Of a stretch of 64,000 bases of DNA, positions 60,703 through 63,092 are shown one piece after another. Made by a program: the position numbers and the translations under genes. Under the pieces are notes generated by a model. It made no database searches, was not told the origin of the DNA, and saw only the letters and a list, made by a program, of their open reading frames with translations. This DNA comes from Cohaesibacter gelatinilyticus (GTDB lineage: Bacteria > Pseudomonadota > Alphaproteobacteria > Rhizobiales > Cohaesibacteraceae): assembly GCF_900215605.1 (NCBI RefSeq), contig NZ_OBEL01000001.1, forward strand, positions 1,612,001-1,676,000, written 5' to 3'. The first letter of the stretch is position 1. Every line of letters starts with the position of its first letter.

Positions 60703-60790
60703 CATATAATTCGCTCTTGGCGAATTGTTCCAGACCTTGAAAACTGATGAAGATCAATCTTGTATTGCCCCTACAAGGTTGATCTTTTTT
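60703..60790 (+). ncRNA. Predicted small RNA of about 87 nt
   Basis: A transcript starting near 60703 would contain a 5' stem-loop (AATTCGC at 60708-60714 with GCGAATT at 60720-60726, loop TCTTG) and a roughly 23-base unpaired linker (60727-60749). The 15-bp terminator hairpin with loop TTGCCCC then follows. No open frame of useful length with a Shine-Dalgarno lies within it. The order promoter, hairpin, single-stranded linker, terminator is the classic layout of a trans-acting sRNA. I do not recognise it as 4.5S, 6S, tmRNA or RNase P RNA, and cannot assign a family. Confidence 0.65.
60750..60790 (+). terminator. Strong terminator of the predicted sRNA
   Basis: AAGATCAATCTTGTA (60750-60764) pairs with TACAAGGTTGATCTT (60772-60786, one G-U) around seven bases, followed by TTTT. 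No plus-strand protein gene ends upstream. Confidence 0.9.
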
Positions 60791-61043
60791 AGTCTTTCCT
60801 CCCCCCTCAGACCCGGCATCTACAAATTACCACTATGTAGGTCCTCTATTCCTGATTGTCTTTTTTGAAACAGATTGACGTCGCCTTCAAGACAGGCGAT
60901 GCTTACCTTTGGGAAACCTAATTTTCCACCTTACATTTCTCCAGACGGCAACAACATATGTCGTGAATGAAATGACCAAATAATCGCGCACAAGACTTTG
61001 CGAAAGGATCGCCCAACCTCTCACTGTCCGAAGGGAGCCAACC

Positions 61044-61522: not shown

Positions 61523-62008
61523 ATGCGGACCCTTATCAATTCTCTTGCACTTCATCTCCGCAAAGCAAAAAACACCATTACACCTATCGCCCTTTCCACC
61601 CTGCTTTCATGTGCATTGCTTCCCGCCGGCAGCACATACGCTACAGCGGGGAATGTACGCGTGAAAATTGACCTTTCCGAACAAAAAATGAAAGTGCTGA
61701 TCAATGGCCGCACCCGTCATAGCTGGCCGGTTTCGACCGCAAGACGGGGATATAGAACACCGGTTGGCAATTATCGCCCCACCCGTATGCATCGCCGATA
61801 TTTCTCAAAGAAATATAATGGCTCTCCCATGCCACATTCAATCTTCTTCTATGGCGGATATGCAATTCACGGAACCAATCAGATCAAACGCTTGGGACGT
61901 CCTGCCTCTCATGGCTGCATTCGCCTACATCCGAACAATGCACGCAAACTCTTTAAGCTCGTAAGAAATAACGGCCCGCGTAATACACGAATTACTATCC
62001 AACGCTAA
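61523..62008 (+). CDS. L,D-transpeptidase (YkuD domain)
   Basis: Periplasmic enzyme that makes 3-3 peptidoglycan cross-links or attaches proteins to the wall. The 161 residues start with a signal peptide (about 1-42). The YkuD domain (about 44-158) carries histidine in AIHGTNQ and the catalytic cysteine 132 in SHGCIRL. The protein consists of little more than the catalytic domain and is strongly basic. It ends in a good terminator, so it is a single-gene unit. Many Rhizobiales encode more than ten such enzymes, so the specific role is unknown. Confidence 0.92.
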   Translation: MRTLINSLALHLRKAKNTITPIALSTLLSCALLPAGSTYATAGNVRVKIDLSEQKMKVLINGRTRHSWPVSTARRGYRTPVGNYRPTRMHRRYFSKKYNGSPMPHSIFFYGGYAIHGTNQIKRLGRPASHGCIRLHPNNARKLFKLVRNNGPRNTRITIQR

Positions 62009-62058
62009 CAAGCAAAAAACCAACCTCGCTAATTGTTTTTTAACCATACCAGATAAAG

Positions 62059-62092
62059 AAGCGCCCTTTCATATGAAAGTGGCGCTTTATTT
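62059..62092 (+). terminator. Rho-independent terminator of the L,D-transpeptidase gene
   Basis: AAGCGCC plus CTTTCAT pairs with ATGAAAG plus GGCGCTT with one bulged T, followed by a T-rich stretch. Confidence 0.85.
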
Positions 62093-62175
62093 ATGCGTAT
62101 TCATATTTTGTTTACAGCAATGAGAAACAATTAGATAAAATTTGAAATAAGTTTTAAGCAAAAGGAGAATAGGGC

Positions 62176-62283
62176 ATGCTGGATTTTATCGTGAAAGCTG
62201 CTTTTCTTCTTGTGCTTTTACATGGCTTAAGCTTGATGATGCGAAAAAAGTTCGTTCATCAAAAATCTGATACAGCCAGATAG
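62176..62283 (+). CDS. 35-residue small membrane protein
   Basis: A short frame from ATG 62176 to TAG 62283, preceded by AAGGAG at eight bases, one of the best Shine-Dalgarno signals in the window. The product starts MLDFIVKAAFLLVLL, has one predicted membrane helix (about residues 4-21), and ends in a basic tail (MMRKKF, then SDTAR). No family is recognised. It lies directly before two tandem stem-loops that look like cuckoo-type RNA. In Rhodobacter such RNAs are co-transcribed behind a small-protein gene (a DUF1127 protein); this product does not look like DUF1127. Confidence 0.6.
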   Translation: MLDFIVKAAFLLVLLHGLSLMMRKKFVHQKSDTAR

Positions 62284-62388
62284 ATTTCAAATCAAAATAG
62301 AGCCTTTTGCCGATTTCCTCCCAAGGCATTCCAAGGCTCTTTTCAAGCGCGCAATCGCCGTTCCTCCCCGGCACTGCGCGCTTTTTTT
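62284..62388 (+). ncRNA. Tandem CCTCC-loop stem-loops (cuckoo-like sRNA candidate)
   Basis: Two adjacent hairpins follow the small gene. The first has arms AGAGCCTT (62299-62306) and AAGGCTCT (62333-62340); the second has arms AAGCGCGC (62345-62352) and GCGCGCTT (62376-62383) and ends in a T-run. Each has a smaller inner stem (TGCC/GGCA; GCCG/CGGC) and presents TTCCTCCC in its loop. The stems differ in sequence but the loops agree. This is the pattern described for cuckoo RNAs of Alphaproteobacteria (two to four hairpins, each with CCUCCUCCC in the loop). The loop here matches that nine-base motif at seven positions. The motif is complementary to Shine-Dalgarno sequences. Confidence 0.65.
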
Positions 62389-62411
62389 GTAATATCAATC
62401 ATCTCGACGCC

Positions 62412-63092
62412 TTAAACCAATTGATCATCCGTCAAGTTGCCAAGCCAATTATAAAGTGGCTGTAAATCATTCATTTTTTTTCCTAATCTGGAAACCAGGC
62501 CGGGCAAACTGGCATCATTCACATCCATATCGATCCAACCAGACAGGCCTTTATGCAGCAAAAGAGAGGCCCGTTGATGCTCAGCATCAAAACCTCGAGG
62601 AATACGTTTCAAGTCTGGTTCATGTATGCAACCACCGACTGCTTTCAATTCTTCGATTATGGATTGCAACTGTTCTCCTCGTCCGTCCAAAACCGCATTC
62701 CGATAAGCGGTCAGCACATCCTTGGCAAAAGCAAACTGACCACACCCCATAACCAGATGGTTCACCTCAAGACCAAAGAACCAAACGGGCCCTTCCTGGC
62801 AACGTTCCAGTGGCGAAAAAGAGATATGCAAATGCGTATTGTAAGGTGTCTTGTCCTTGGAGAAACGAAGATCACGATAGATACGGAAAATGCGAGATTG
62901 ATGCACCAAACCGCTTCGCTCCCGAAGTAGCTCTTCGACATGACTGACAAATTCCTTAGCGGGTGCCTGAATGATATCCTGATAGCGCTTCTTGTTCTCG
63001 GCGAACCATACTTTGTCATTATTGGCCTTCAAGTCTGCCAAAAACCTCGCACTATCTTCCGGAAAAGCAAAGCTGGATTGATCCGATATCAT
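62412..63092 (-). CDS. DUF2461 family protein (TIGR02453)
   Basis: A 226-residue soluble protein of the DUF2461 family, function unknown. Family segments visible: FAFPEDSARFLADLKANNDKVWF-type start within the first 30 residues, RIYRDLRFSKDKTPYNTH near 68, and the FGLEV core strand near 103. ATG 63092 is preceded by AGGGAAG; the frame is open 15 codons further, but that would overlap the upstream TfoX-like gene. With this start the two are 19 bases apart and probably co-transcribed. Confidence 0.87.
   Translation of the reverse strand: MISDQSSFAFPEDSARFLADLKANNDKVWFAENKKRYQDIIQAPAKEFVSHVEELLRERSGLVHQSRIFRIYRDLRFSKDKTPYNTHLHISFSPLERCQEGPVWFFGLEVNHLVMGCGQFAFAKDVLTAYRNAVLDGRGEQLQSIIEELKAVGGCIHEPDLKRIPRGFDAEHQRASLLLHKGLSGWIDMDVNDASLPGLVSRLGKKMNDLQPLYNWLGNLTDDQLV

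Follow-up and report, generated by a model that had tools for sequence, protein, structure and literature searches.

Near the end of the stretch of DNA analysed here (64,000 nucleotides, hereafter the window), two adjacent hairpins present the same pyrimidine-rich octamer, TTCCTCCC, in their loops. This raises the question of whether the locus specifies a small RNA directed at ribosome-binding sites, as proposed by a first-pass annotation that read 62284-62388 as a cuckoo-like anti-Shine-Dalgarno RNA, or whether the loops serve the adjoining gene, the ends of transcripts, or a protein. We examined the locus by folding, by comparison with related genomes, with covariance models, and by a genome-wide search for start sites complementary to the loops. 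The features concerned are listed in Table 1.

Table 1. Features of the double-hairpin locus and its surroundings (window coordinates)
Feature	Position	Strand	Description	Basis
YkuD L,D-transpeptidase gene (LDT)	61523-62008	+	Syntenic anchor	Pfam PF03734, E 5.9e-21
Terminator-like hairpin	62058-62088		GAAGCGCC...GGCGCTT, between LDT and small ORF	T-rich stretches on both strands
Promoter-like site	62111-62141	+	TTTACA-N19-TAAAAT, upstream of small ORF; putative function	
Small ORF	62176-62283	+	35 codons (MLDFIVKAAFLLVLLHGLSLMMRKKFVHQKSDTAR)	G009 and G017 have a 34-codon counterpart in this place
Linker, small ORF to hairpin 1	62284-62298	+	A/T-rich, unpaired	Sequence, fold
Hairpin 1	62299-62340	+	12 bp; 13-nt loop with TTCCTCCC at 62315-62322	Fold
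Hairpin 2, also intrinsic terminator	62345-62383	+	13 bp; 8-nt loop, exactly TTCCTCCC (62361-62368)	Fold, terminator-like scan
Terminator T-run	62382-62388	+	Seven T	Sequence
DUF2461 gene, downstream	62412-63092	-		

Structure and setting of the double hairpin

The plus strand of 62284-62388 folds with a minimum free energy (MFE) of -36.9 kcal/mol (z -6.32), a stability equalled by none of 200 dinucleotide shuffles, and fold and sequence together confirm what the annotation had described: two tandem hairpins with TTCCTCCC in either loop, the second running into a T-run, on stems that bear no obvious resemblance to each other. Its count of seven matching bases out of nine against the published nonamer, CCTCCTCCC, is likewise correct for both loops; the exact nonamer has no occurrence in the 64-kb window. 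The octamer alone is not rare, since it occurs four times in the window against 2.34 expected. A same-strand pair of octamers with starts 25-80 nt apart is found once in the window and in none of 300 shuffles, and a pair of the six-base TCCTCC at the same spacing is present in 93 of the 300. Hairpin 2 is the sole one with a CCTCC apical loop among the 91 T-followed hairpins of the window, as collected under a loose definition that does not place plus-strand hairpin 1 in the set.

Across the whole genome, TCCTCC-N20..50-TCCTCC occurs at 15 places, against three for the reversed pattern. By eye, tandem hairpins with the motif in their loops are formed at this locus and at the genome's canonical ar14 RNA, the latter accounting for two overlapping matches. 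Another of the 15 places, L093, was rejected as a tandem RNA because (i) its hairpin 1 reaches only -2.8 kcal/mol and (ii) its first motif coincides with the start site of a gene on the minus strand, the observation that prompted our search for targets.

On its 5' side, the locus lacks a CIN1-type DUF1127 gene directly upstream of the RNA; the gene before the small ORF encodes the YkuD protein. In the window's lineage, the hairpin between LDT and small ORF probably terminates LDT transcripts. The promoter-like site that follows is the single match in the window to TTTAC[AG]-N19-TAAAAT, and sites of the same form and 19-base spacing occur in loci L002 and L022; the usual promoter spacer is 17 bases, so that this one is longer. 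The 35-codon ORF probably hosts the RNA. Between LDT and RNA, the window's genome, G009, and G017 all have a small ORF, 34-35 codons long; the 35-codon form shares 29-41% identity with the two 34-codon forms, and codon position 2 shows the fewest changes in all three pairwise comparisons, which fits translation. It has no match in Pfam or NCBIfam and is therefore not a DUF1127 ORF. The linker that separates it from hairpin 1 is a possible zone of RNase E cleavage. On the 3' side, hairpin 2 serves as plus-strand terminator, while hairpin 1, which the window hairpin scan found terminator-like on the minus strand with a T-rich stretch after it, may also end the transcript of the DUF2461 gene. A TfoX_N protein gene (Pfam) and, further downstream, what is presumably guaA also lie on the minus strand.

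Conservation across the genus and recognition by covariance models

LDT was used as the anchor for synteny and is present in 17 of the 18 genomes of the genus, the exception being a genome that is 64% complete. DUF2461 was a poor anchor, as only three of the 18 carry it at E 1e-20. A double hairpin with CCTCC loops lies 3' of LDT in 14 of the 17 LDT-bearing genomes (14 of 18 in the genus), always on that side of the gene in the copies read, and a first hairpin with a CCTCC apical loop was seen at the place in the 13 genomes other than the window's. In G008, G012, and G014, no CCTCC pair 25-65 nt apart was found within 900 nt of LDT; G014 has, by eye, a plain terminator-like hairpin there instead. 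DNA similarity alone retrieved one convincing further copy from 41 genomes (G009, E 2.5e-10), and the next-best rows were taken as chance. The gene content around the RNA varies: in ten genomes (L038, L041, L043-L047, L049-L051) the RNA lies at most about 80 nt 3' of a second, tandem LDT copy; in G006 it lies 3' of a single LDT, with no second one; and G009 keeps both hairpins without an adjoining DUF2461. The RNA thus stays while its neighbours come and go.

Linkage to LDT was seen in this genus only. The LDT search gave matches in 151 of 199 genomes, and among the 31 loci examined outside the genus, which represent the most similar part of these matches (26 of the best 30, four of the genus being excluded, plus five others), none had a CCTCC pair within 500 nt downstream; one of the 31, in G018, is from the same family. 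Five named LDT relatives belong to Stappia, Rhizobiaceae, or Hyphomicrobiales.

As one outcome that would speak against a cuckoo RNA, the annotation had named relatives that keep the hairpins as terminators and lose the loops. We found the reverse, in that the stems change among 14 of the 17 but their loops retain CCTCC. Across seven copies selected to cover the range of divergence, both hairpins have an invariant CCTCC core, partly by construction since the copies were anchored on the motif, whereas the 11-base flanks (leaving out three bases beside the core) are 30-33% identical in an ungapped comparison, which scores a kept but shifted stem, such as the outer GCGC of hairpin 2, as different. 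The occurrence of the motif in two successive hairpins at the site in each of the 14 genomes is not a product of that anchoring. Hairpin 2 retains its outer GCGC stem, and its inner stem varies. In the MFE folds, CCTCC is fully unpaired in both hairpins of 11 of the 14 copies, and the hairpin-2 motif is partly paired in three (G001, G007, and G013). In nine copies, a bulge of hairpin 1 holds CCTCC for a third time, also unpaired, and the exact nonamer CCTCCTCCC is present in nine of the 14 orthologs. The locus alignment that had been proposed as a check returned the expected loop conservation and modest stem covariation: in the consensus fold of ten copies, four of 21 pairs show two-sided changes. 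Covariation was counted on these ten because the MAFFT alignment was wrong in the stems of the copies that diverge most.

A covariance-model search, also proposed, agreed in part with a model of our own and fell short with Rfam. At cut-off, no Rfam model matched anywhere in the window. Rfam ar14 (RF02344) aligned over its full model length with 62302-62386 at 15.5 bits (E 1.8), far below its cut-off of 58.8, as one of seven weak Rfam matches in 61900-62600 (E up to 5), and the window's own copy is absent from the ar14 list of 41 genomes. Section 3.4 of PMC3927594 calls a covariance model inadequate for a family of this kind, whose stems diverge. Other LDT-linked copies also remain below the ar14 cut-off (G016, 32 bits; G009, 26.8; G004, 25.5; G007, 23.1; G001, 19.2). 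Above it are canonical ar14 RNAs in 21 of the 41 genomes, among them every one of the 18 from the genus, and one of 14 control genomes gave a match, below cut-off. The canonical ar14 of the window's own genome (C1:1226802-1226911, 73.3 bits) lies beside a DUF1127-like ORF and has three motifs, the last of them in a loop with TTCCTCCC. Several copies per genome in Alphaproteobacteria, as is characteristic of cuckoo RNAs, were thus found here. A further ar14 match, at G000:C2:79816-79916 (L130 616-716; 26.3 bits), was set aside since, by eye, it is one strong terminator-like hairpin with a AACCTCCTT loop and a T-run, not a tandem.

We then built a covariance model, R1, from ten LDT-linked copies, holding out the four most divergent, among them the window's. 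Run on the loci, R1 found all four held-out copies, at 39, 31.5, 22.2, and 16.7 bits, the window's being the one at 31.5. On whole genomes, the window locus was the best match in its own genome (E 1.8e-4); of the other held-out copies, G015 reached 2.0e-6 and G017 only 0.99, and G009 was not among the matches listed. R1 also matched the ar14 place in all 13 canonical loci tried (17-30 bits). Under a stricter filter, 18 of 150 genomes of the order had a match at E 0.01, and the window's own genome had none at that threshold. Among 13 R1 loci outside the genus, four have a DUF1127-like ORF with repeated CCTCC, four have repeated CCTCC without the ORF, and five have no CCTCC nearby.

R1 misses a DUF1127 array in G019, which belongs to another genus of the same family. 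There, four DUF1127-like ORFs share one stretch (L131, G019:C79, 440-2640), and behind three of the four stand rows of hairpin-like units, nearly identical to one another, that carry TTCCTCCC or TTCCTCCTT. From its sequence, L131 appears to be an expanded cuckoo array, and its units indicate that the TT form of the motif occurs in DUF1127-linked loci.

In comparison with ar14/NfeR (RF02344, cuckoo family), the locus shares (i) tandem hairpins with an anti-Shine-Dalgarno motif in each loop, (ii) variable stems, (iii) a terminator at the end, and (iv) candidate targets among the mRNAs of solute-binding proteins. It differs in having two hairpins where ar14 has three, in carrying TTCCTCCC instead of CCTCCTCCC (seven of the nine bases of the exact family motif, CCUCCUCCC), in its score below the Rfam cut-off, in its place 3' of LDT or a small ORF, and in the third motif in the hairpin 1 bulge of nine of the 14 LDT-linked copies. 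Because only their loops are kept, cuckoo RNAs easily escape covariance models. The 14 copies at one syntenic place, where loops stay, stems turn over, bulge motifs arise, and the host gene changes, make the idea that only the loop matters directly testable.

Complementary start sites and competing explanations

The annotation had called the loop a perfect bait for ribosome-binding sites, and its complement is indeed common before start codons: the window's own genome has 62 places (L187-L248) where GGGAGGAA, the exact complement, precedes ATG by 3-9 bases, against three for the reversed pattern. The three other first bases together (HGGAGGAA) gave 86 places, against 12 reversed. G is the commonest first base among these variants, although AGGAGG would be expected to pair better with the 16S tail. 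An ORF of at least 100 aa starts at 57 of the 62 places and at 44 of 80 comparison regions, which derive from the 86 HGGAGGAA places (five left out, two overlapping places sharing one region). Among the Pfam matches listed, DctP was assigned to 16 of the 57 ORFs and to 4 of the 44 (Fisher p 0.023), and solute-binding families together to up to 33 of 57 and up to 14 of 44 (p 0.015), the latter counts being sums over non-overlapping families and not protein-by-protein counts. A signal-peptide-like start, by a crude rule, was found in 30 of 57 and 14 of 44. Solute-binding proteins are frequent in the comparison set as well. With the 49 ORFs of the window as background, neither DctP nor another solute-binding family was among the matches listed (25 of 86 families). 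Many of the GGGAGGAA places precede TRAP and ABC solute-binding-protein genes. GGGAGGAA before ATG would accordingly amount to a shared start-site code, and its enrichment suggests a loop suited to a regulon of uptake genes, as predicted by complementarity. The sites are unassignable to this RNA alone, because the canonical ar14 of the genome fits them too.

These 62 perfectly matching start sites elsewhere also weigh against the strongest of the competing explanations, in which the element would act in cis as part of the 3' untranslated region, its loops pairing with the LDT Shine-Dalgarno site or within their own mRNA and tuning LDT only. The LDT start region does contain GGGAGG, the complement of CCTCCC, as the sole one among 49 start regions of the window, and the element is 3' of LDT in every copy read. 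The same region ranks third of the 49 by duplex energy with the loops, although that test used a rough rule of start choice that favours Shine-Dalgarno-like sites. However, GGGAGG is not kept: the first LDT of most RNA-bearing relatives has AAGGGG-type sites, and GGGGAG is found at LDT in G008 and G012, two genomes without the RNA. Feedback on LDT thus draws no support from conservation of its start site, and in three genomes a promoter-like site and the small ORF intervene between LDT and RNA. We regard an action in cis as improbable.

Rather less probable still is that the hairpins are terminators only, hairpin 2 for the plus-strand mRNA and hairpin 1 perhaps for the convergent DUF2461 gene, with loops shared by accident. 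Both could serve in that way, hairpin 2 being well suited as a terminator and hairpin 1 resembling one on the minus strand, and a T-rich tail is clear, by eye, in 13 of the 14 copies (the exception is G017). Yet termination needs neither a fixed loop nor a third motif in a bulge; the loops stay across copies whose stems diverge; G009 has both hairpins with no DUF2461 to terminate; and no other such loop exists among the 91 terminator-like hairpins of the window. The weakest alternative, a decoy platform for an RNA-binding protein that would read the C/U-rich single-stranded loops without any pairing, strikes us as very improbable. A protein would also be served by one and the same pyrimidine-rich loop carried on differing stems, and passages of PMC10253847 describe the DUF1127 protein CcaF1 as an RNA binder with a role in the maturation of CcsR. 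Against this, the start sites that the loop complements exactly are enriched before genes of solute-binding proteins, and for NfeR1, passages of PMC10746234 report that such motifs pair.

A probable cuckoo-type RNA with an unusual host gene

The cuckoo-type interpretation is supported by syntenic copies that keep their loops, nine of the 14 with the exact nonamer, by covariance models that recognise each other's loci, and by the TTCCTCCC loop in the genome's own ar14. We therefore consider it probable that 62299-62388 encodes a cuckoo-type (ar14/CcsR-like) anti-Shine-Dalgarno sRNA, derived from the 3' end of an mRNA, that silences uptake genes. The observations are those of sequence, structure, synteny, loop conservation with stem turnover, model cross-recognition, and a set of complementary start sites; from them we infer how the RNA would be transcribed and processed, how it would pair, and what it would repress. 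A short mRNA starting from the promoter-like site at 62111 would carry the 35-codon ORF, with the RNA as its 3' end; in relatives, the RNA would be the 3' end of the L,D-transpeptidase mRNA. It would end at the hairpin 2 terminator, and an RNase E cut in the A/T-rich linker probably frees it. Either UUCCUCCC loop would then serve as a seed, exchangeable for the other, for pairing with Shine-Dalgarno sites of the GGGAGGAA type, so that ribosomes would be kept from entering, chiefly on the mRNAs of periplasmic solute-binding proteins of uptake systems.

Cleavage from a 3' end and blocking of start sites in trans are proposed by analogy with NfeR1 and CcsR1-4. A 2011 paper describes the loop motifs of the family as similar (PMC3927594, section 2.7). 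For NfeR1, passages of PMC10746234 describe redundant loops that silence mRNAs, such as ntrB, by pairing with their start regions, and two other tested targets encode periplasmic substrate-binding proteins (passages of PMC8844928 and PMC10746234). In Rhodobacter sphaeroides, CcsR1-4 (ccaF1-ccsR operon, CIN1) arise by cleavage of the ccaF1 3' UTR (PMC8625941), need RNase E (parts of PMC8625941 and PMC10253847), and are classed as 3' UTR-derived in part of PMC8307010. The locus has in common with them an anti-Shine-Dalgarno double hairpin (RS0680a; section 2.7 of PMC3927594) and its place after a small ORF, with the operon closed by a terminator (passages of PMC10253847); unlike theirs, its small ORF is not DUF1127, and it has one RNA where Rhodobacter has four. 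AbcR1 and AbcR2 (ar15) share the CU-rich unpaired anti-Shine-Dalgarno motifs and silence transport mRNAs, as described in passages of PMC7143759 and PMC8844928. They differ from the locus in that no ar15/AbcR match was found at cut-off in the window, or at E up to 5 in 61900-62600.

What is unusual is the host, which is LDT or a 35-codon ORF and not DUF1127; a peptidoglycan enzyme falls outside the DUF1127 pattern. Within the collection of papers searched, none joins a transpeptidase with a cuckoo RNA or Cohaesibacter with an sRNA, and the tables of the main cuckoo paper may already list non-DUF1127 places. More tentatively, and less likely than not, a cuckoo RNA may have moved to a new host and become the 3' end of the LDT mRNA in this genus, which would tie expression of a cell-wall enzyme to the silencing of some sixty genes, many of them for uptake, that share the eight-base start-site code GGGAGGAA. 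The window's lineage would have lost the second LDT and kept, apart from the RNA, no more than the promoter of that gene and a 35-codon remnant ORF resembling a signal peptide, so that the RNA would be the unit under selection; the proposed link of the small ORF to the signal peptide of the second LDT rests here on position and hydrophobicity. The start-site code before solute-binding-protein genes offers a concrete predicted regulon.

Elsewhere in the window, at 60749-60803, a terminator-like hairpin lies in the gap between an NnrU gene and a weakly DksA/TraR-like gene and is followed by TTCCTCCCCCC; it possibly belongs to another small transcript.
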